From Eunapius fragilis (taxonomy: Eukaryota > Porifera > Demospongiae > Spongillida > Spongillidae), in NCBI GenBank assembly GCA_963681505.1, contig OY811982.1:5108836-5172835 (forward strand): DNA of 64,000 bases, read 5' to 3'. This document shows positions 2,524 to 45,342 of the stretch, piece after piece; position 1 is the stretch's first letter, and each line of letters begins with the position of its first letter. A program made the position numbers and the translations under genes. The notes beneath the pieces were generated by a model. That model made no database searches. It was given only the letters and a program-made list of their open reading frames with translations, and was not told where the DNA came from.

Positions 2524-3958
2524 CAACGATTGTACTATCATTTAGGGGTGTTTGTAGCCATGTCCATAACGCAAGGGGGTTGTGGAATCCCTTTTCTGGC
2601 ATCGCCTGTATTTGACTACATTGTCAATGGAACATGTAGTGCTGTGAGCATAAGACCTTGTGATATTCCAGATATTTTACTAAGGAACACTGTAGAAAGT
2701 GTAAGCCACTACCTCTATTGCATTCTTCCAAATTATTCACAAATTCCATTTACAAGCATGCAGATAATTATGGATTTCTATATTAACTAAACCGTTCAAC
2801 TTGGAATCACAATCAGTACTCACCATGAGGATCTTCTTAGTATAGTGCACAGGCTATAATCCATACTGAGTATTTCCAAGGGACAACTCAATTGCATATC
2901 ACTTCATTCACTACATAACTCTTATACTACAATGTTTTTGATGGAATGCAGATTTATCAAGTACATAGTATTGAGATGTCTATCAATCTTCAATATTTAT
3001 CCTTATGAGTGTTAATTTTTATTTACCTAACCTTGTTTTCTAATATGCAAAGTGGAGGGGAGCAAGTGTAAAATATTAATTACAACATACCTGATCCCTA
3101 GCTTAATAGACGTTTAATTGTTATCTTATTTTATATGCATACATACATGTATTAAATTATACATATATGGGACGGTGTCCAGCAAAATCACCCTTCTGGA
3201 GTTTTAATTTTATCACTATAAAAATTGTACGTTACACAAAGCAACATATCTTCACAACGGTTTTATATTTTCTTTTCAAATTTCGTACACTTGTTCACAC
3301 ATCAGTTCTCTGTGTGCAAACCGATTTTGGTGCTCTAGATATTTTCCGTGCCATGGTTGCAAAGGTCTCCAATCCAATGGGTTAAGATTCCACATTTCTC
3401 CAGATACGAGTGACGATAACATGTCAAATTTGGAGTGTACATAGAAGGGTCCTGTAGCTACTGATTTCTGCAGATCGTTAAGTTTTTTCTTATCCGTTAC
3501 GGAGATATGGATTTTCAAAGTTATTCGACATTTCGCGCCACTCACCCTATTCCAATATGCCATTATGTAATGGTCACGCCCTTTAAATTTGAAGTTAGGT
3601 AATGAACTCCGCTTTGATCGTTCTACGTGGTGTATAAGCGATCGTACCTCGTACGCTATGTTTCAACATAAAACAGTATCGTACGTTCACATGTATCGCT
3701 TATGATGGATGCTGTGAATATTCATGGTAGTTTATATTGTGCACCCTTTTTCTATATCTGCTCAGTTTGTGGCATGTACATGTAAGCATGCACGTACCAT
3801 GCCTTCTAATCATGGGGCCACCTTCTTCACCCTCTACACCCTCTACACTAGTCTGGGGACCAGATGACTTGCTTGCGACAGTCAGTTATCTGGTACACAA
3901 ACTGCAGTACCTTTACTTAGTATGGCATATCTCTCTAGACCATTCATATTCACTGCCT

Positions 3959-6475
3959 TTCTTTCTATCTTACTTCCTCCTCCTTCTCCTCCTCTCCCTC
4001 CACCTCTTCCTATATTCCTTCATCCACCCATCCTCCTCCTCCCCTCCTCTTCCCTCCTCCTCCTCTCCTCCTCCCCTCCTCCTCCTCCCTCCTCCTCTTC
4101 CTCCCTATCACTTTCCCTCCTACCTTCCTTCCTATTACACCTAACACCCCTCCTACTCCTTTCTTTTGATTGCATCCACACCTCACCCTCCTCCTCCTCA
4201 TCCTCCTACTTCTACCTTCCTACCTGTTGCATCCTCCCCTCCTCCTTTCATTTTTCCCGTTGCATCCACCCCACCTACTCCTCCCCCTCCTCTACCTCCT
4301 TCTCCTCCTCCCCTCCTCCTCTTCCTATCTTCCTTCATCCACCCATCCTCCTCCTCCCCTCCTTCTCCTCCTCCCTCCTCCTCACCTCCCCTTCTCTTAC
4401 TCCCTCTCATTTTCCCTCCTACCTTCCGTCCTATTATACCTACCCCTCCCCCTCCTTTCGTTTGATTGCATCCAACCTCCCCTCCTCCTCCTCATCCTCC
4501 TACTTCTATCTTCCTACCTGTTGCATCCTTCCCTCCTCCCCCTCCTCCTTCCATTCTTCTTCCCATTGCATCCACTCCCCACCTTCTCCTCCCTCTCCTC
4601 TACCTCCTTCTCCTCCTCTTCCTATCCTTCATCCACCCATCCTCCTCCTCCCCCTCCTCCTCTCCTCCCCTCCACCTCCCTCCCCTCCCCCTCCTCCTCC
4701 TCCCATCTTCATCAACCCATCCTCCTCCCCTCCTCATCCACTCCGTCTCCCCTCCTCCTCCTCTCCGTCTCCCCTCCTCCTCCTCTCCGTCTCCCCTCCT
4801 CCCTCCACCTCCTCTCCTCCTCCCTCCTCCTCCCCTCCACCCCCTCCTCCTCCCCTCCTCCCTCCTCTGCCCCTCCTCCTCCCTCCTCCCCCCTCCTCCT
4901 CCCTCCTCCTCCCCTCCTCCTCCCTCCTCCTCCCTCCTCCTCCCCTCCTCCTCCCTCCTCCTCCCCTCCTCCTCCCTCCTCCCCCTCCTCCTCCCCTCCT
5001 CCCCCCCTCCCCTCCTCCCTCCCCCTCCCCTCCTCCTCTCCTCCTCCTCCCCTCCTCCTCCCTCCTCCACCCCTCCTCCTCCCTCCTCCTCCCCTCCTCC
5101 CCTCCTCCTCCCCTCCTCAACCCTCCTCCCCTCCTCCTCCCTCCTCCTCTCCTCCGCTTCACCTCCTATTCTCTTCCTCCTCCTCCTTCCATTCTTTCCG
5201 TCGCATCCCCCTACCTTCTCTTCCCCTCCTCTACCTCCTTCTCCTCTTCAGCCTCCTCTTTTTCCTATCTTCCTTCATCCACCCAACCTCCTCCCCCTTC
5301 TCCTCCTCCTCCTCCCTCCTCCTCCCCTCCCCCTCCTCCTCTTACTCCCTCTCATTTTCCCTCCTACCTTCCTTTCTATTACACCTACCCCCTCCTCCTT
5401 TCTTTTGATTGCATCCACACCTCCCCCTCCTCCTCCTCATCCTCCTACTTCTACCTTCCTACCTGTTGCATCCGTCCCTCCTCCCCTCCATCCACCCATC
5501 CTCCTTCCCTCCTCCTCTGCTCCTCCCCTCCCCCTCCTCCTCTTACTCCCTCCCATTTTCCCTCTTACCTTCCTTCCTATTACACCTACCCGTCACCTCC
5601 TCCTTTCTTTTGATTGCATCCACACCTCCCCCTCCTCCTCCTCATTCTCCTACTTCTACCTTCCTACCTGTTGCATCCTCCCCTCCTCCCCCTCCATCCA
5701 CCCATCCTCCTCCTCCTCTCCTCCCCTCCTTCTCCTCTCCCCTCCCCTCCTCCTCCCATCTTCCTTCATCCACTCATTCTCCTCCCCTCCTCCTCCTCCC
5801 TCCTCCTCCCCTCCTCCTCCCCTTCTCCTCCTCCCCTCCTCCTCCTCCCACCTCCTCCTCCCCTCCTCCTCCTCCCCTCCTCCTCCTCTTCCTCACCTAC
5901 CCCTCCTCCTCCTCTTACTCCCTCTCATTTTCCCTCCTACCTTCCTTCCTATTACACCTACTCCACCCCCTCCACCTTTCGTTTCATTGCATCCACACTT
6001 CCCCCTCCTCCTCCTCATCCTCCTACTTCTACCTTCCTACCCTTTGCATCCTCCCCTCCTCCCCCTCTTCCTCCTTCCCGTTGCATCCACCCCACCTTCT
6101 CCTCCCTCTCCTCTACCTCCTTCATCTCCTTTCCCTCCTCCTTTTCCTATCTTCCTTCATCCACCCATCCTCCTCCTCCCTTCCTCCTCCCCCTCCTCCT
6201 CCTCCCCTCCTCCTCTTCCTCCCTCCTCCCCTCCTCCTCTTACTCCCTCTCATTTTCCCTTCTACCCACCTACCCCTCCCCTCCTCCTTTCTTTTGATTG
6301 CATCCACACCTCCCCCTCCTCCTCCTCATCCTCCTACTTTTACCTTTCTACCTGTTGCATCCTCCCTCTCCTTCCCCTCCTCCTCCTTCCATTCTTCCCG
6401 TTGCATCCACCCCCATCTTCTCCTCCCCTTCCTCTACCTCCTTCTCCTCCCCCTCCTCCGCCTCCTCCTCCTCTT
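3959..6475 (+). repeat. polypyrimidine tract of left arm with higher-order repeats
   Basis: About 2.5 kb is nearly all C and T on the plus strand, mostly CCT/CTC triplets. Sparse A-containing phrases recur in fixed order: TTTGATTGCATCC (near 4164, 4461, 5402, 5608, 6294, with a variant near 5988), TCCTACTTCTACCTTCC, CCCGTTGCATCCACC, CTTCCTTCATCCACCCATCC and ACTCCCTCTCATTTTCCC. These mark a higher-order unit of roughly 200-900 bp. Long open frames here (Ser/Pro/Leu-rich) follow from the composition and are not taken as genes. Confidence 0.9.
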
Positions 6476-7195: not shown

Positions 7196-10084
7196 AAGGT
7201 GGAAGGGGAGGAGGAGGAGGTAAAGGAGGGGGAGGAGGTACAGGAGGGGAGTAGGAGGTAGAGGAGGGGGAGAAGGAGGAGGTAGAGTAGGGGGGAGAGG
7301 TGGGGAGGTAGAGGATGGGGAGGTAGAGGATGGGGAGGTAGAGGATGGGGAGGTAGAGGATGGGGAGGTAGAGGATGGGGAGGAGGAACACGAGAAGGTA
7401 AAGGAGGGAGAGGGGTGGGTGCATCTGGAAGAATGGAAGGAGGAAGAAGAGGAGGAGGGGAGGATGCAACGGGTAAGAATGTAGAAGTAGGAGGAGGAGG
7501 AGGAGGAGGAGGAGGAGGAGGAGGAGGAGGAGGAGGAGGAGGAGGAGGTGTGGATGCAAGGAGGAGGGGGAGGGGTAGGAAGGAAGGTAGGAGGCAAAAT
7601 GAGAGGGAGTAAGAGGAGGAGGACAGGGAGGAGAGGAGGAGGAGAGGAGGAGGAGGGGAGGAGGAGGAGGGGAGGAGGATGGGTGGATGAAGGAAGATAG
7701 GAGGAGGAGGGGGAGGGGAGGAGGAGGAGAGGAGGAGGAAGATGGGTGGATGCAGGAAGATAGGAAGAGGAGGGAGAGGAGGAAAAGGAGGTAGAGGAAG
7801 AGGAGGAGAAGGTGGGGGTGGATGCAACAGGTAGGAAGGTAGACATAGGAGGATGAGGAAGGAGGAGGGAGGTGTAGATGAAATCAAAAGAAAGGAGGAG
7901 GGGAGGGGTAGGTGTAATAGGAAGGAAGGTAGGAGGGAAATGAGAGGGAGTAAGAGGAGGAGGGGGAGGGGAGGAGGAGGGTGTGTAGATGAAGGAAGAT
8001 AGGAGGAGGAGAAGGAGGTAGGAGCAAAATGAGAGGGAGTAAGAGGAGGAGGAGGAGGAGAGGAGAAAGAGAGGAAGAGGGGAGGAGGAGGGGAGGGGAG
8101 GAGGAGGGGAGGAGGAGGATGGGTGGATAAAGGAAGATAGGAGGAGGAGGGGAGGGAGGACGAGAAGAGGAGGAGGAGGATGGGTGGGTGAAGTAAGATA
8201 GGAAGAGGAGGAGGGAGAAGAGGGAAGGAGGTAGAGGAGGGGAAGGAGAAGGTAGGGGGTGGATGCAACGGAAAGAATGGAAGGAGGAGGGGAGGATGCA
8301 ACCGGTGGGAAGGTAGAAGCAGGGGAGGGGAGGAGGAGGGGAGGAGGAGGAGAGGAGGAGAGGAGGAGGGGAGGGGAGGAAGGAGGGGAGGAGGGAGGAG
8401 GAGGGGAGGAGGAGGGAGGAGGAGGGGAGGAGGAGGGAGGAGGAGGGGAGGAGGAGGGAGGAGGAGGGGAGGAGGAGGGAGGAGGGAGGAGTAGGGGAAG
8501 AGGAGTGAGGAGGAAGGGAGGAGGAGGGAGGAGGAGGGGAGGAGGAGGGAGGAGGAGGGGTGGAGGAGGAGGAGGGGAGGAGGAGGGAGGAGGGGAGGAG
8601 GAGGGGAGGAAGTGGAGGGAGGAGGAGGGGACGGAGAGGAGGAGGAGGAGACGGTAAGGAGGAGGAGGGGAGGAAAATGGGTGGATGAAGATAGGAGGAG
8701 GAGGGGGAGGGGAGGGAGGTGGAGGGGAGGAGAGGAGGAGGGGAGGATGAGGATGGGTGGATGAAGGAAGATAGGAGGAGGAGGGAAGGGGAGGACGAGG
8801 AGAGGAGGATGAGGATGGGTGGATGAAGTAAGATAGGAAGAGGAGGAGGGAGAAGAGGGAAGGAGGTAGAGGAGGGGAAGGATAAGGTAGGGGGTGGATG
8901 GAACGGAAAGAATGGAAGGAGGAGGGGAGAATGCAACCGGTGGGAAGGTAGAAGCAGGGGAGGGGAGGAGGAGGGGAGGAGGAGAAGAGGAGGAGGGGAG
9001 GGGGAGGGAGGAGATGAGGAGGGGAGGAGGAGGGGAGGAGGAGGGGAGGAGGAGGGGAGGAGGAGGGAGGAGGAGGGAGGAGGAGGGGGGAGGAGGGAGG
9101 AGGAGGGGAGGAGGAGGGAGGAGGATGGGAGGAGGGAGGGAGGAGAGGGAGGAGGAGGGAGGAGGAGGGGAGGAGGAGGGAGGAGGACGGCAGAGGGGAG
9201 GAGGAGGGAGAGGAGAGGAGGTGGAGGGAGGAGGAGGGGAGACGGAGAGGAGGAGGAGGGGAGACGGAGAGGAGGAGGAGGGGAGACGGAGAGGAGGAGG
9301 GGAGGAGGATGGGTGGATGAAGATAGGAGGAGGAGGAGGGGGAGGGGTGGGAGGTGGAGGGGAGGAGGAGGATGGGTGGATGAAGGATAGGAAGAGGAGG
9401 AGAAGGAGGTAGAGGAGAGGGAGGAGAAGGTGGGGAGTGGATGCAATGGGAAGAATGGAAGGAGGAGGGGAGGAGGGAAGGATGCAACGGGTAGGAAGAT
9501 AGAAGTAGGAGGATGAGGAGGAGGAGGGGAGGTTTGGATGGAATCAAACGAAAGGAGGGGGGAGGGGTATGTATAATAGGAAGGAAGGTAGGAGGGAAAA
9601 TGAGAGGGAGTAAAAGGAGAAGGGGAGGTGAGGAGGAGAAGGAGGGGAGGAGGAGGGGAGGAGGAGGGGAGGAGGAGGATGGGTTGATGAAGGAAGATAG
9701 GAAGAGGAGGAGGGGAGGAGGAGAAGGAGGTAGAGGAGGGGAGGAGAAGGTGGGGTGGATGCAACGGGAAAAATGAAAGGAGGAGGGGAGGATGCAACAG
9801 GTAGGACGGTAGAAGTAGGAGGATGAGGAGGAGGAGGGTGAGGTGTGGATGCAATCAAAAGAAAGGAGTAGGAGGGGTGTTAGGTGTAATAGGAAGGAAG
9901 GTAGGAGGGAAAGTGATAGGGAGGAAGAGGAGGAGGGAGGAGGAGGAGGGGAGGAGGAGAGGAGGAGGGGAGGAGGAGAGGAGGAGGAGGGAAGAGGAGG
10001 GGAGAAGGAGGATGGGTGGATGAAGGAAGATAGGAAGAGGTGGAGGGAGAGGAGGAGAAGGAGGAGGAGGTCAGATAGAAAGAA
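7196..10084 (+). repeat. polypurine tract of right arm with higher-order repeats
   Basis: This is the inverted counterpart of the left tract, about 2.9 kb nearly all G and A on the plus strand. The same marker phrases appear in complement (GGATGCAATCAAAAG near 9848, GGATGCAACGGG, GGGTGGATGAAGGAAGATAG). Internally there is a pure GGA run at about 7492-7546. The right arm is a few hundred bases longer than the left, so copy number of the internal units differs between the arms. Confidence 0.9.
7308..7383 (+). repeat. 15-bp tandem repeat AGGTAGAGGATGGGG
   Basis: Five near-perfect consecutive copies at the inner end of the polypurine arm. The homogeneity is much higher than in the rest of the tract, which suggests recent local expansion. 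No equivalent block was noticed at the inner end of the left arm. Confidence 0.85.
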
Positions 10085-37777: not shown

Positions 37778-38627
37778 AGTTGGTTATCCGTTACTCCGCT
37801 AACAGTCAGTTTAAATGCACGGTTACACACAACGTAAGCGCGCGCACAGATAGAAAAATATAAACGTGTCCTCAAAACGACGTACACTTTCATGTGCACA
37901 GATCAGAGTTTGACCGATCTAAAAAGTAAAATCTAGAAAGAATACGTTCCCTTAAAATTCTACAGCCATGAGTGTAAAATCTTACGCGGTCCTTCGAAAG
38001 TGTCATGTATCACGCAGATATCACAGGAAAAAATTTCGTTTTCCGGACATCGGGAAATACCCCCGGAATCGCTTAATTCCACCTCATAATCCCAACATTG
38101 GGTTTTTGGAACAAAAACAACCTTGGGTTTTTGCAGCGGAATTTTACGATTTTGCAGCGGAATTTTACGTGTTTCCACTGGTGGAAAGTTAAAATTTCCT
38201 ATACATTTCTGCGGTAAATTCCCAAGAAGAAATTATGTTTTCCATATATGGAACCAAGAATAAAATTACCACCTCTGTTTCTATATGCTTATACTCCGTT
38301 TCCGCTTAGATTTCTCTTCTATCCCACAACGGAAATAGCAACGACTGAGCTGCAAATCCTACCTTGGTTTTTTTAATTTTCACCTCTGTTTCTCCAAATC
38401 CCAGCCTGGATGTAATAAATTCCGCATATGGTCTATCCTCTCAGATTTCCTTAGATTCCACACCACAGAACAATTTCTACGTCGTCAATCTCACCCTGGT
38501 AACATAATCACAATCTACTTCTCAATGATGTCATATCAATTTTGATCACCAATCAGTGCACCTCAATATTGAAAAAACAATTGAATCAATGCATGTAAGT
38601 TGTGTTGTCCAGTGAATGCTGCATGTA
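37778..38627. other. AT-rich flank with multi-hairpin-like phrases (38020-38460)
   Basis: Contains AGGAAAAAATTTCGTTTTCC and TTCCGGACATCGGG, related to 31649-31970, and recurring TTCCGC/GCGGAA and TTCCACTGGTGGAAA inverted pairs. Precise ends are not clear. It adjoins the 3' end of the SAM-domain gene. No coding sequence recognised. Confidence 0.4.
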
Positions 38628-40447
38628 CTAAAGCACCCCACTAACCAAAATGTCATCTCTTGTCAGATCACAGACATCAGCTCCAGAGTTAATCTGAATA
38701 ATTTTCTTAGCAAGAAGACCCTGTGCAAGTGGCTTAAGCAATGATGTCTTTGGTGCTGTGAGAAGTGCTTTCCTCTCAGCATTTTGAAGAAGATGATTGT
38801 TGATAGCCCTAACAAGTTGTTGCCTGGTTACTTCTTTCAGGAAATGGACACCAAAAGCTTGAAGCACAATTAATTCTGCACTTTTTACTGATAGTAGGTC
38901 TAAAAAGAATAATTAAAATTGGTTAATACTTATATAATTCTTCTCACCTAAGTTCAAGCAATGAACTTCAGGAGTGGGGTCACAAGAAGGTGAAACTTGA
39001 GCTGTGGCTGTACAAAAATAAATAAATATGTGCATATATTTTAATGGTATATTCACTGAGTATGATTATACTCACCAATCTTCAAGCATTGAACTTCAGT
39101 GAGGTCGTGTGAAGTGATGGCTGGAGCAGTAGCTATATATATAATGTGAGTAGAATTATAATGTATTGAATATCATGCACACAACATCACTTGTTTACCT
39201 GCATTCAATGCTAACAGTAATTTGTTGAACTTACTTGCATTTGTCACACCAACTGATGAAGTTGTATCTTTAGCAATAGCTTTACGTATGCGTGGCTAGT
39301 GTGCATGGTAAATTGTGACAATTATTACTGAACAACATTCATTGGGTTGCAAAACAAATACAGCCCATATTGACATGCATGCTATAATCATTATAATCAT
39401 TAGGTTGCTGCATGATAATCATTGTAAGTAATTTAATGTCTATTATACATATCTCACACATGCTTACTTTAGTGTAGTCAACCCCTTTCCTTATTCTTCT
39501 TTTTTTCTCAGTCAGTGAATCAAAGATATGCTGCCTTATTGCACGTTCTCCAAAATATTTTGTTTTGCAAGTTGGGATTAGTGTTGCAGCAAGCTCTTCC
39601 AGTTTTTGTCGCTCAGCACTGTCAGTCTTAAATAATGGAATACTGTTGCCCTTCCAGGTATCGTATACAGCCTTGCGAACTTTATTACGCCTAATTGAAC
39701 ATAATGTATTAGCACAGCGGTGCACAAAATATACATGCTGCCTTACATCATAAGATAGATCCTTCTATCTTCTGGTGAGATCTTCCCCAGTTCAGATAGA
39801 GACAGCTTTCTATTTAATTCAATGCAACTTGTACCGCAAGCCACTTGTTCTGTTACTGCCACCACACATATTTTCTCTGAACCCTGAATCAGTCTTTTTA
39901 GCTTTAGTTGATCTTTGACAGTTTCCAGTCCACATGCCTTAAGTTGATCTGTTGTCCCTGTCTTGCATAACATTAGTAGTGTCTCACCATCTATTTCTTG
40001 CTCTGAAAGATCAAAGAACACCGTGCACCAAGCTGCGGTTAATTTACACCAGGTAATATGGACGTGTGAACCGGCGACTGCGCCCGCCCTCCAAACTGAT
40101 ACTTTTTACGCGCGCAAATGCACACCATGCCAGGCTCTAAAAGTGCCATGTCAAACCTTGGTAAAGAATCCTACGTATGAATGTACTATTTAGGGTGATC
40201 GATCGGCAAGCGCGATAGGGTGCACACCGTTACCCAAAATACACTTCATTAGCTAGTGGTCAAAATGCGATGATTTCACATTTGTTTAGCATCTACAGTG
40301 ATGATTTCACACACTGAGCGGAACAAAGCATGAATTTATCAATGTACCTTCAAAGCGATGTGCAACCCGTGAATTGTATTGCTTGAGCGCCCATTCCACT
40401 GTCTCCTCAAACTTCCAACTCGCTACTTCGTCTTCGCTAACTGCCAT
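38628..40447 (-). CDS. SAM-domain protein of a divergent two-gene transposon, 342 residues
   Basis: Seven exons on the minus strand: 40447-40348, 40002-39747, 39690-39468, 39295-39235, 39132-39076, 39007-38948, 38899-38628. Their lengths sum to 1,029 bases and the phases match at every junction, so the frame is intact from ATG to stop. Residues about 10-60 form a SAM (sterile alpha motif) fold: WKFEETVEWALKQYNSRVAH, then RFEEQEIDGETLLMLC and ETVKDQLKLKRLIQG. A basic middle region follows (RNKVRKAVYDTWKGNSIPL, TEKKRRIRKGVDY). Two tandem duplicated mini-exons encode TAPAITSHDLTEVQCLKIG and ATAQVSPSCDPTPEVHCLNL. The last exon is helical (VHFLKEVTRQQLVRAINNHL). SAM domains mediate protein-protein association. 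It lies head to head with a Tnp2 transposase, 77 bases away, so it may be the element's second protein. That role is inference; domesticated host gene is the alternative. Confidence 0.7.
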
Positions 40448-40524
40448 GAGATTGAAAAGTCGACGATATCTCGATCCGATATACAGGCACCGGCGTTTAC
40501 ACGCGCACTGATCTGGAAATGTAA
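40448..40524. promoter_or_regulatory. bidirectional start region between SAM gene and Tnp2 gene
   Basis: Only 77 bases separate the two divergent ATGs. The stretch contains CGACGATATCTCG, GCGTTTACACGCGC and TGCGCATGCGCA-like self-complementary sequence and is CpG-rich relative to its surroundings. A shared promoter with both 5' leaders overlapping is the simplest reading, unless first non-coding exons lie inside the neighbouring genes. Confidence 0.5.
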
Positions 40525-43500
40525 TTGCGCATGCGCAGGAAGCAACATACAATACAGATGAGTGCAACGTTAACGTGGAAAAGGGAAGACATCGTATACT
40601 GTAGGTGCTCAGACATGCGCAGCGTGCATTCTCACTGCCCTTGTGGGATGTGCAATGGTAGAGCAGTGTCGAGATGTACTGAATACAGGCATTGGGAAAT
40701 CGCTACCGAATGTGCATCGAACTTAGCTTTCACAGCCAGCCCATCGTCATCACTCGTCATTCCTGAAATGCCTATGTGTTTATCGAACGTTGTTTCTGAT
40801 GGTAAAACAATGTCAGGTGACGAGCTTGAGGCCTGCAGCTGGGAGATCGCCACAGTAGCGAACCGCGCAAACCAATCGTCGCCCTTCATCACTTCTACCG
40901 ACTCCGGCGATGTGGAAACAATGCTTGAGGCCGAGGATTTCTTGGCGGGAGGAATAGAATGCACTCTGCAAAATGAAGATGCATCATTTCCTATTGAAAA
41001 TGCTGAGCGAATGCAAGGAACGGTCGTTGATAATAAAATCAAATGCATTATTCGAGAAGCAGTTTTAGGAGCAATGAAGATTCAAAGTGAATTTTCGTCA
41101 TCACGAGCTCACTTTTTGAAAGTTTTAAACTACGGTCGTGATCTATACTGCAAAGGTGACCCAAATGTCATAAAGTACTGGCCAAAAACGTGGCAAGATT
41201 GCATCTCGTTGCTATCTGGTGAAGGGTACACTGAGGCAATTCAGTATTGGATTTGTCTCAATAGAGAGCATCCATGCTGCTATGATATCATAAATTCACC
41301 AGAAGAACTGTGCAAGTGAGTTGGTGTATGTAAAAAGTAATTGCTAGCTGATCTGCAGCGTATATATGCAGTTGTAGCATGCAGCATTATGTGTCAGCTA
41401 TGTAGTTAAACTGCATGATTAATCTACCCTGCCAGGCTAATGTATGTTTTCTTTAACCATGAATTTATAAACACATAAATGCATGGCTCATGTTTATTTG
41501 GCAACTTATCATTTCTATCAATAGACACTGTGGGCAAAAAGGTCAATTAACATACTATTATTTGAGCCTACATGATAAAATAAGGAGATGGTGCAGCAAT
41601 CCTCACTTCTGTGAGAAGATGATGGCTCATTGGAAGGAGAGAGATCACTGGCTCAGTAATGAAGTTCTTTTTGCTCGGAATGAAATATGGGATGGAGGAA
41701 GGTTCAAAGAACTTTCATGGTTTTGGAACCCTGAAGCAAGATGGGTTTTACAAGCTTTGTGCCCAAACTGCAAGCAAGTTGTGGGCAGTCAATCCATCAA
41801 GGATGAATTAGGGCTTTCACCAGAAACACACATTGAAGAGCATTATGAATGCAGCATATCTATTCAGTGTCCTAATTGCTACTTACGGTTTGAGCACAAA
41901 CCCAAAGTTACAAGTGGAGATCCTAGAAACATTGCTCTTATAGGCCATTGGGATGGGTGGCAACCTTTCTGCACATCATGTAAACACAGTTGTGGTGAGT
42001 GGTTATTATTAGCTCGCATGCTGGCTAACTTTAGTGTACTAATTTACAGGAGCTATTGAGGTGTCAATTGCCACAATGAAAAAGTCTGATCGATGCAGTA
42101 CAGAAGAGGTGTATGTCTCTGGATTTTTTCCAAGCTATCTACTGCCTAATAAGTGTCCAATATCTCTTGATCAATTTCTGGAGATTCTTGTTAAAGAATT
42201 AGAGGATTTATTTGTAAATGGTAATGGAGGTGGCTGTGTACATCACATAAAAGATTTTTTTTTTAGGCATTGAGGTTGAATACACCGGATCATCTGAAGG
42301 ACTTCCCCCTGGAAAGATAGTAATACGGTGCATTTTACTACTGTGGACTGGGGACTACCCTGCTCAAGCTCAGGTTGGAAAATTTATCCAAGGAGGAATT
42401 CGACCCTGCAGACGTTGCAATGTTGTTGGCATGAACATTGTTTTTCAGTCATAATGCATCACAATATTTATTTAAATCCCACAGGTACCCAAGGTTCAGA
42501 GTCAACCCACTATTACTATGGTAACTACAGATATCACAGCAGATACCCAAGTGCTGAAAGAGACCTGAATATGTTTGTGCAGACCATGAAAGACGTCGAA
42601 TGTGAGGATCGGCCTACAGTTCATGCTACTATGGCACAAGAGAGTGGTTTCACTGGTCTCTCCATACTACACCGACTCTACGCTGCTTATGGGTTCAATA
42701 TTTTAAAGGATATCACTTTCGATGCCATGCATGATATTACCCTTAACATTATTCATCACCATCTTCAGAGGTATTTTGAAGCTGGAATTTTGTCTAAAAA
42801 TGAAATTGATGTAAGACTGGCAGCCATTCCATGGACATCCGGTACATTGCTAACTTTAGCTTAATATGTTGGCACATAAATTGACACTTGTATAATAAGC
42901 TAGTTAATTCTTAGCTTACATATAAGGTATAAGATATACCAGCGTTCTCTAAAATATCATGTATTGAAACCATAATCATGTTACAAGATAAACCAGTGCT
43001 CGCTACAATCACATGCACATGCTTTAGAACTTAAGGATGGCAGACTTCCAACCTCAGTTACCAAGCGATTAGGGTTTTGGAAGGCAGAAGAGTTGCAGAA
43101 ATTTTGCTATCCAGCATCAGAATATGTACTAGGAGGAATCCTACCTGATGATGAGTATCATGTGTGGGTACTAATTGTTCGCATAACTGAAATGATCTTG
43201 CAAACAGGACAAAGCGGTTAGTCTGATGATGATATTCAACTTCTTAAGCAGTTAATTCTCAGGCATAACATCCTCACTGAAGAAGTTGAGGGCCTAAAGA
43301 GTTGTGTCGTAACACTGCATAACCTGATACATTACCCTGAGGATATCAAACGCTTTTCAAGCCCTGACAATTACTGGTGTTACTCTTTTGAAAGAGCAGT
43401 ACATGGTTATGTGATTAGGTCATCCAATAACCGAAACATGGAGTTGTCATTCTCAAATTCAGAATGCCTAAGAGAATTCCTTAAGTTTCACGGTGGAAAT

Positions 43501-44407
43501 GTGCATAGTTCCATGAAGTTAAATACGTCTTATTTCCCAGTAAGTTAATTGAATAAAATTATCCACACTGTAAAATGAATTTTCTTAACAGGGATATGTT
43601 CATGCAAGTACTATTTGTGAAGCAGTTACCATGGCAAAACATAGAGATGTGGCATTTCAATCAATCTTAGTTGGGGGAAAGAAATACACTTCACTTTCCA
43701 CACATGAAGTAACAGAAGTTTTTCGTGTCTTGAAAAAGCAACAACCAATAAATTTTACCCTTGCTGTGATACAAGTTCCCAGCATTTACATGTCACAGCA
43801 TGGTTTTGGAGGTACTTTGTATCGTGTTGGTGAACACGTCCTTGTGATGGATGATGCAGGTGAATTATCTGTAGCCAAGATAGATGCAATCTTAGCTGTT
43901 AACATTGAAGAAGAGTATCATTTGCTTCTAAAAGGAGAGGAATATGCTCAATCTGTGACAGAAACTGGTGACTCCAGAATTCATGCAAGCAGTGAAAACC
44001 CATTTGTTGAGCCCACTTCATCTATGATTTTTTCCCCATGCAAAAGCATTGTTAGGAAAGTGATGCTGTTTCCTGATCCTGATCACCTGCATGATCCATA
44101 TATGTATGTGGTTATAGATCATCAAAGACCCTTCATACCACTCAACAAAGCGGCTGTAATTGTACCACATTTCCCTGAGGCTGGTGATATGGTGTATGTT
44201 CGTGGCACCATTGGGAATGAAGTATACTTTGCACATATACAGTCAGTTAACAAGAACTCTAACACTTGCCAGGTCTACTTCTATGGAAATGACCCAAGCA
44301 TATCTGCTTCAACATACAAAAGGCTTAAGTTGCAGGAGACAGTACACTGGTCGTCAATCCTAGGAACAGCAAAAGGACAATTTGTAGGACACTATTGGGT
44401 TGCATAA
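40525..44407 (+). CDS. Tnp2-type transposase 2, seven exons, one in-frame stop
   Basis: Exons 40525-41315, 41525-41994, 42050-42220, 42267-42428, 42485-42841, 43028-43539 and 43592-44407 total 3,279 bases with all phases consistent (1,093 codons). The intron after 42428 uses a GC donor. Recognised blocks: CPCGMCNGRAVSRCTEYRH, HWKERDHWLSNEVLF, FKELSWFWNPEARWVLQALC, ATMKKSDRCSTEEVYVSGFF, QVGKFIQGGIRPCRRC, HYYYGNYRYHSRYPSAERDL, GFTGLSILHRLYAAYGFN, FDAMHDITLNIIHHHL, KRLGFWKAEELQKFCYPASE, RHNILTEEVEGLKSCVVTLH, FSSPDNYWCYSFERAVHGYV. These match a metazoan branch of Tnp2 transposases distinct from the copy at 27847. A TAG at 43219-43221 falls between QTGQSG and SDDDIQLLKQL, where relatives seem to have Trp, so a single substitution probably inactivates the copy. 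The start could also be 40561. The C-terminal 270 residues are of unknown role. Confidence 0.8.
42429..42484 (+). other. short GC-AG intron of transposase 2
   Basis: The 56-base intron begins GCATGA and ends CCCACAG. It is required to join NVVG with TQGSESTHYYYG in phase 1, as the family alignment suggests. GC donors are a minority class in animals. Confidence 0.6.
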
Positions 44408-44575
44408 TGTACAAACATGTACCACATATTCTATATAGCTAATGTAGACAACATTATAACAATGCTTTCTGTGCTTGGAATGAAGTGACTCCATTATAGG
44501 AAATACAAGTACAGATAGTAACCGAGCATGCACCAAGGAAGTAAAAATGTAATACTTATTTCGTTTGTATAAATT

Positions 44576-44905
44576 CCCGGATGGGAAAAAATTCCCATGT
44601 ATGTTAATATGGGTTATTATAAATTGGACATGGGTTTTTAGTGTTCATACTGGGTTTTCGGAAAACCATTCCACTGATGGAAGTGCTATCTGGAAATATT
44701 TTTTCCAGATTGGAATTTACATTTCCATCACAGGAAAGATTTAAATGGTTTTCCGAAAAACCCAGTATGGATACGAAAAATCCATGTCCGATTTATAAAA
44801 AACCATTGAATTGCTGTTTCCGGGTTGAGATTAACATATTCCGTAGATGGTAATTTTCATTCCCATCCAGGAATATTTTCCCATCTGGGATTTTTTAAAA
44901 TTATT
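44576..44905. repeat. long multi-hairpin element beside transposase 2
   Basis: Inner stem: ATAAATTGGACATGGGTTTT...ATACTGGGTTTTCGGAAAAC at 44619-44671 pairs with GTTTTCCGAAAAACCCAGTA...CATGTCCGATTTAT ending near 44798. Inside it are ATGGAAGTG/CATTTCCAT and CTGGAAATATTTTTTCCAG. Outside, CGGATGGGAAAAAATTCCCA pairs loosely with TTCCCATCCAGGAATATTTT and TTTTCCCATCTGGG. No coding content. Confidence 0.7.
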
Positions 44906-45342
44906 GACGGAATTCGGAGTGAAAACCATGGTTGGGAATGGGAATTGATCAAAACCCAAGATAAAACCATGGTTGGGAATGAGAAATTTTTTCCTGTGGA
45001 TTCAGATTCAGTTAGGTCCGTTTCATGCATTCTAATAAACGCCCAAGGCATTTGCATTCTGATTACTAAATTGCATCCGCAACGTGGGGCAAAAATGGTA
45101 ATGTGTTAGTGTGTGCACAACCTCGTCTATTCAAATCAGCGATGCAGACGTTCGTTCGATTACCATCAAGGTCATTGAAAGAGGTAGCAAGGTTTGTCAT
45201 TGTTCAGATTTTGCTCAACCGTGATTATTCCCAACCGTCACTACGTGTTGTAAAATCACAGTCGGCTTAGAAACAGCGCAGCTAAACCACGAAACAACGT
45301 AGGTTGGTTTTACATCCTCGTACACTATGCAGTTCGTTCACA
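44906..45342. other. flank with a short duplicated phrase, no gene
   Basis: AAAACCATGGTTGGGAATG occurs twice (about 44922 and 44965), continuing the GGGAA-rich style of the adjoining hairpin element. After about 45080 the sequence becomes CpG-richer and leads to a small candidate gene. Confidence 0.35.

Follow-up and report, generated by a model that had tools for sequence, protein, structure and literature searches.

A SAM-like partner gene lies head to head with a Tnp2 transposase in a CACTA/EnSpm-type transposon of Eunapius fragilis

According to the part of PMC2613891 that treats them, plant CACTA transposons need both of their proteins for transposition, and TNPA recognizes the subterminal repeats. 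The same part describes TNPA and TNP1 as mutually dissimilar. Here we describe a CACTA/EnSpm-type element from a 64,000-nucleotide stretch of the genome of the sponge Eunapius fragilis (assembly GCA_963681505.1, contig OY811982.1, positions 5,108,836 to 5,172,835). The whole stretch is called the window and corresponds to C12:5108836-5172835 in the searched genome, which comprises 218.9 Mb on 24 contigs. The element carries two genes placed head to head, one for a Tnp2-class transposase and one for a protein with a SAM-like N-terminal domain. These two genes form one mobile element, since both lie inside shared ends.

Dispersed copies of the element occur at several other places and are mostly 91-99% alike over the parts tested. 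The blast blocks of four near-full copies (L009, L010, L011 and L012) span 38022-44998, within a few bases, and include both genes. Another copy (L014/L015) runs through both genes to both ends and is split by an insertion of ~11 kb, and one more (L017) keeps both ends with internal deletions. Both frames are open in L009. The transposase frame is open in L011, where the SAM frame has one stop, and the half-copy L014 has an open SAM frame; the other copies are partial or have frameshifts, stops or deletions. An earlier sequence-only reading of the window had proposed a two-gene DNA transposon and had named copies ending between the two genes as a sign against it. None of the aligned copies ends in that gap, and the proposal is supported by the copy ends, which enclose both genes. 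The unit it outlined (38628..44407) was too small. The features of the element as a whole are the following.

38022..44998, unstranded: whole element, CACTA/EnSpm-type two-gene DNA transposon, 6,977 bp, both boundaries common to copies
38022..38044, plus strand: left terminal inverted repeat, 23-nt arm, starts CACAGGAAAAAATTTC
44976..44998, minus strand: right terminal inverted repeat, 23-nt arm
38022..38627, unstranded: left subterminal region with TTCC-N-TGG palindrome-like motifs, 5 motifs in window bins 38000-38499
44408..44998, unstranded: right subterminal region, motifs as on the left, 9 of them in window bins 44500-44999
44609-44665 / 44750-44806: 57-nt inverted repeat inside the right subterminal region
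40448..40530, unstranded: 83 bp separating the start codons of the two genes, presumed bidirectional promoter

The two terminal arms are 87% complementary over 23 nt, with a 16-nt core that is exact on both sides, and the element has the 5'-CAC...GTG-3' ends that define CACTA/EnSpm transposons of the CMC clade. The left boundary is shared by 8 of 10 other left ends, which start at query position 13 (window 38022); one of the remaining two starts at position 9 and the other, in a decayed copy (79%), at 33. On the right, the flank of the window's own family (family A) aligns at seven other places and stops at 579-582 (window 44998-45001); the alignment of a 78% relative ends at 566, and three matches of 50 bp end at 580. 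A second family (family B) is represented by L023 and L024, which are 97% alike and have the same 16-nt ends as family A. Exact 3-bp target duplications, as expected of CACTA/EnSpm elements, flank four of the seven two-ended family A copies (AAC, TAA, GTG and TTA) and one of the two in family B (TAT in L023, none in L024). At least five of nine would arise by chance with a probability of about 1e-7 to 1e-6. The extended 23-nt end pattern CACAGGAAAAAATTTCNNGTTCC has 16 occurrences in the genome against 0 for a reversed control, and by position all 16 fall at loci with family A or B SAM or Tnp2 sequence. The window copy's own ends deviate from the pattern and are not among the 16. Given the copies at other places and this 16 to 0 count, the observation is not due to chance. 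The search for shared ends, terminal repeats and target duplications that the sequence-only reading had called for thus found all three: common boundaries, inverted repeats and 3-bp duplications in 5/9 copies. At window 38263, about 146 bases that are present in other copies are missing from the window copy.

The two divergent seven-exon genes were confirmed where the earlier reading had placed them; here, as throughout, splice models are predictions from the sequence. The features of the partner gene are the following.

38628..40447, minus strand: SAM-like partner gene, 7 exons, 342 aa, closes in frame; open also in L009 and L014
40447-40348, 40002-39747, 39690-39468, 39295-39235, 39132-39076, 39007-38948 and 38899-38628, minus strand: exons 1-7 of the partner gene
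39887..40423, minus strand: SAM-like domain (approximately residues 9-72), encoded by exons 1 and 2 on either side of intron 1
39468..39690, minus strand: exon 3, basic and most conserved, predicted three-helix region, candidate DNA-binding part
38628..38899, minus strand: exon 7, C-terminal region, conserved with about 50% identity to family B

The model is exactly 1,029 bp long with zero internal stops, in agreement with the length and open frame given earlier, and its splice sites are GT-AG in the L009 copy. The N-terminus is probably a SAM-like domain. Pfam SAM_2 matches the domain with E 0.0013 and 19.3 bits, against a cut-off of 20.5, and the whole protein with E 0.023. A two-sequence profile of families A and B had six matches in the PDB, all six to SAM domains (best E 0.0024), and phmmer with the domain gave 23 matches up to E 1, mostly SARM1, Atherin/SAMD1, neurabin and Scm (best 0.01). 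The family B domain alone has no SAM match in Pfam. Because the Pfam score lies below the cut-off, the PDB profile matches are to SAM domains only and family B lacks a SAM match in Pfam, we use the name SAM-like.

Exon 3 shares 47-65% identity with four relatives. Its single-sequence structure model shows three helices at modest confidence (predicted local distance difference test, pLDDT, 67.5), and a PDB fold search with this model returned 0 matches at E 0.001. An exon 3 profile against PDB sequences gave nine matches up to E 5, the best (0.031) to an oxidoreductase, which we judge to be due to chance. No relatives of exon 3 were found in viral_contigs, a result that says little about other organisms. 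The family B version of exon 7 has no Pfam match, and the structure model of exon 7 (pLDDT 52.6) is too weak to use. The stretches 38933-38971 and 39061-39099, which cover the 3' ends of exons 6 and 5 plus adjoining bases of the introns, form an 82% direct repeat; one of these two exons may have been born by duplication.

The transposase gene has the following features.

40531..44407, plus strand: Tnp2/Transposase_21 gene, 7 exons, Pfam match on the L009 copy
40531-41315, 41525-41994, 42050-42220, 42267-42428, 42485-42841, 43028-43539 and 43592-44407, plus strand: exons 1-7 of the transposase gene
43219..43221, plus strand: in-frame TAG in exon 6 of the window copy; the frame stops before the conserved FER motif
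42429..42430, plus strand: GC donor of intron 4 in the window copy

On L009, PF02992 (Transposase_21/Tnp2) matches with E 2.4e-6 and 27.3 bits, slightly below its curated cut-off of 28.6. We assigned the residues of this copy ourselves, following the D, D, C(2)C, H(3)H, E rule stated in the relevant part of PMC12730594, as D5, D105, C123/C126, H346/H350 (LHNLIH) and E370. When three further Tnp2 families from this genome are aligned with it, D5, D105, both C, H350 and E370 prove invariant (4/4); family A has the complete H(3)H, whose first H is missing in family E, described below. From the first ATG at 40531 the model is 3,273 bp long. The 3,279 bases and the 77-base interval between the genes reported earlier would both follow from a start at 40525, where the sequence is TTG; the gap from ATG to ATG is 83 bases. 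The claim that both splice models close in frame stood for the SAM-like gene and failed for the transposase, owing to the TAG and the GC donor. Neither of these two changes occurs in the eight other copies that cover both sites (8 of 11 aligned copy segments). With its transposase broken and its SAM-like gene open, the window copy could move only with enzyme from another copy. A two-sequence transposase alignment found no relatives in viral_contigs and genome_contigs; as these hold viruses and prokaryotes, this says little about relatives elsewhere.

The pairing of the two genes extends beyond family A. SAM-like sequence was found at 24 loci with E values of about 1e-6 or lower (our grouping of 97 exon-level matches), and a divergent Tnp2 adjoins it at 14 of them. 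The Tnp2 count is a lower bound, since the genome search scored 96 of 305 candidates. The 14 paired loci comprise nine near-identical family A loci, the window included, and five strongly diverged ones, all head to head (C1:20.11M, C8:0.44M, C11:3.37M, C14:2.52M and C5:8.93M); the C14 pair has lost most of its transposase. In L023 the gap is ~52 bp, with start codons at 3340 on the minus strand and about 3393 on the plus strand. The sequence-only reading had asked whether the genes stay head to head at many loci, which these 14 bear out. It had also considered a single-copy SAM gene without Tnp2 neighbours: there are 24 SAM-like loci and 14 pairs, which leaves ten loci where no Tnp2 was seen. 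Six of the ten (L019, L020, L021, L028, L029 and L032) hold SAM-gene parts only, within the bases fetched, and L019 and L020 have the left end. The other four are known from matches only (C20:4186k and the exon-7-only matches C6:5118177, C15:2862964 and C1:11763487), and a solitary host SAM gene may be among them.

Both proteins show codon constraint between families. The proportions of nonsynonymous and synonymous differences (pN and pS) for the partner are 0.29 and 0.86 between A and B (247 codons) and 0.40 and 0.90 between A and D (155 codons). For two segments of the transposase compared between A and B, pN/pS values are 0.22/0.92 (79 codons) and 0.32/0.70 (226 codons). The ratios are rough, given that synonymous sites approach saturation; both genes are constrained all the same. 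Together, the diverged head-to-head pairs and the constraint on both proteins indicate that the SAM-like partner has long belonged to the element, judged from sequence comparison.

A candidate third pairing type, L022, was rejected, as it combines a decayed left end with a neighbouring Tnp2 of a distant family. Two distant intron-less Tnp2 families (about 26% identity), L037 and L038, have divergent open reading frames opposite the transposase start, which lie as follows.

L037:2791-4013, minus strand: divergent open reading frame opposite a distant Tnp2
L038:5124-5939, plus strand: divergent open reading frame opposite a distant Tnp2

One such divergent frame, in the L022 copy, has no Pfam match. 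L038 also has CACAGCAAAAAA in inverted orientation at 994 and 6754.

The same layout occurs with a different partner in a related lineage, family E. Its Tnp2 has an open frame of 1,046 codons without introns, 38% identical to the window transposase in the searched part. The copies L031, L033 and L034 are 99.3-99.9% alike over about 9 kb, up to a CACAGGGAAAAATTAT end, and a long GTGTGTAAGG-type tandem array 3' of the transposase (L031:1-1590) is common to them. A multi-exon partner diverges from the transposase as in the SAM lineage, and its exon 1 encodes a TDP-43 N-terminal domain (PF18694, E 4.8e-11; 3.8e-12 in a diverged relative, L036). The scores of 42.8 and 46.4 bits in the two lineages are above the cut-off of 27.1, and the family E N-terminus matches TDP-43 in the PDB with E 0.0024. 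The partner exons of L031 and L036 differ with pN 0.28 and pS 0.81 (226 codons). Genome-wide there are 18 PF18694 matches. Ten of these lie, by position, opposite a Tnp2 start, and these ten make up all but one of the 11 strongest. Another two, at C9:788k, possibly represent the host TDP-43 gene. The other six are weaker matches of about 35-39 residues and lie away from the studied Tnp2 elements.

C2:1478407, C2:1479355, C2:1495094, C2:1496042, C9:4764965 and C9:8738058: weaker TDP-43_N matches

Homology between the SAM-like and TDP-43-type partners beyond their N-termini is not claimed: hhalign gave E 0.0045 for the last exons in a single comparison (probability 7.7%) and E 0.26 to 0.75 for the other three exon pairings. 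The recurrence of one layout with a TDP-43 N-terminal domain in a related lineage suggests that the self-assembly modules are exchangeable.

The ends of the element are rich in a palindrome-like motif, defined as TTCC or TCCC, 3-7 bases and TGG, plus its complement. Counts were compared with 300 first-order resamples of the sequence. L009 has 8 motifs in its first 620 bp (resample mean 1.2) and 9 in its last 460 bp, and L023 has 8 and 9 at its ends. For these four ends (420-620 bp) the resample means are 1.0-1.6 and 0/300 resamples reach any of the counts. The L009 interior holds 4 motifs in about 6 kb (mean 3.7). A family D end, which was not used for the definition, has 4 motifs in 600 bp (1/300 reach); the SAM-side stretch fetched for that family, which covers DNA short of a located end, has 0. 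In the 64-kb window only three 250-bp bins hold at least three motifs, all at the ends of the element. Multiple subterminal repeats at both ends, a mark of plant-type CACTA elements, are thus present.

It is probable that the element is a cut-and-paste CACTA/EnSpm transposon in which the SAM-like protein is a TNPA-like end-pairing partner. The Tnp2 protein would cut at the 5'-CAC...GTG-3' ends and insert the element with a 3-bp duplication. The SAM-like protein would be the functional counterpart of plant TNPA, and its basic helical region would bind the palindrome-like sites near each end. Self-assembly is known for both SAM domains and TDP-43 N-terminal domains. The SAM-like domain would join DNA-bound copies of the protein into an oligomer or filament and in this way draw both ends together for the transposase; in the related lineage, self-assembly of the same kind would come from the TDP-43-type N-terminal domain. 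A broader proposal is put forward more tentatively, as a possibility somewhat short of even: in animal CACTA elements the constant feature of the partner would be an exchangeable N-terminal self-assembly domain, and a filament or condensate near the ends would be the conserved means of finding and pairing the ends. If true, this would give a directly testable model for end pairing in large transposons, and a TDP-43-type domain, familiar from neurodegeneration research, would be shown to be encoded by a transposon.

Several points weigh against the end-pairing role and the pairing on which it builds. No exact 3-bp duplication flanks four of the nine two-ended copies; in family A these are the window copy, L009 and L012. 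The SAM assignment is weak for a single sequence, as given above for the Pfam scores of families A and B. The low-confidence exon 3 model, which lacks a structural match, leaves charge and conservation only as the grounds for DNA binding. The motif was defined after viewing the A and B ends, and the L023 interior holds 6 motifs in about 6 kb (mean 3.1, 31/300 reach). The one family E end examined has 1 motif (67/300 reach) and so no excess, which means that a TDP-43-type partner would need other sites. Some Tnp2 pieces of this clade have no SAM match nearby (L030, within the bases fetched; C1:10.50M, C3:10.86M, C16:3.67M and, as a right half, C1:12.03M), just as no Tnp2 neighbour was seen at 10/24 SAM-like loci. 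No plant TNPA/TNP1-type Pfam family is among the matches up to E 1. As TNPA and TNP1 are themselves dissimilar, this last result lowers the case for membership in the plant type and leaves that for functional likeness as it was.

The SAM-like protein could instead regulate the element, as a self-repressor or an anti-silencing factor on chromatin, and stand outside the end-pairing machinery. We regard this as unlikely, although it deserves serious consideration: in the PDB the domain chiefly matches SAM proteins, Atherin/SAMD1, Scm and SARM1 among them, and other transposon groups carry presumed silencing-escape genes, such as TET/JBP in fungi (as described in part of PMC12730594). Clusters of the motif, however, occupy both ends and are absent from the bins around the shared gap, and a regulatory role and an end-pairing role are not mutually exclusive. 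That the SAM-like gene was captured from the host and travels as a passenger without a part in movement is very improbable. Host genes do get captured by transposons, and the ten SAM-like loci without a Tnp2 in view fit this explanation, but the five diverged loci retain the head-to-head layout and the constraint on the partner between families is about equal to that on the compared transposase segments. Two unrelated neighbours, or an element nested beside a host gene, have only the separate strands in their favour; we rejected this explanation as next to impossible, since the copy boundaries enclose both genes.

Elsewhere in the window, a long TCC-rich array (3975-6473) faces a long GGA-rich array (7207-10070) with extreme and opposite GC skew. 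Together the two resemble a giant imperfect inverted repeat.

The reading of the SAM-like protein as an end-pairing partner can be set against the systems described so far, the transposons among them being taken from the part of the cited source that deals with each. Among the open-access literature matches listed, judged by title and the start of the abstract, none pairs CACTA/EnSpm or a transposase with a SAM or TDP-43 domain, and none describes an animal counterpart of the second, DNA-binding protein of plant CACTA elements. The domain classes of the A/B and E partner N-termini are those of Atherin/SAMD1, Scm and SARM1 (SAM) and of TDP-43. These are host proteins, whereas in the present case a transposon codes for the domain next to its transposase. 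Among fungal EnSpm elements, those with TET/JBP genes also have CAC...GTG ends, a 3-bp duplication and an extra non-transposase gene, although that gene encodes a dioxygenase and not a self-assembly protein (PMC12730594). SmTRC1 and other animal TRC/CACTA elements have a Transposase_21 domain and spliced transcripts, to which the Transposase_21 match and the predicted splice models of the present element correspond. The ends of SmTRC1, in contrast, start with CCC and its target duplications are of 2 bp (7/14 copies); it has splice variants and a second open reading frame that shares residues with the first product, and no SAM partner is described in that part of the account (PMC1636069). There is likeness, too, to plant En/Spm, Tam1 and Tgmt, with their TNPD/Tnp2 and TNPA/TNP1 proteins: a transposase assigned to the Tnp2 class, CAC...GTG ends, a 3-bp target duplication (Tgmt), repeated subterminal motifs and two element-encoded proteins (PMC2613891). 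The plant elements obtain the second protein from spliced transcripts of one unit (PMC2613891), whereas here it comes from a separate head-to-head SAM-like gene. One animal-like genome holds two kinds of partner, with two different domains known for self-assembly that are positioned and oriented alike with respect to the transposase.

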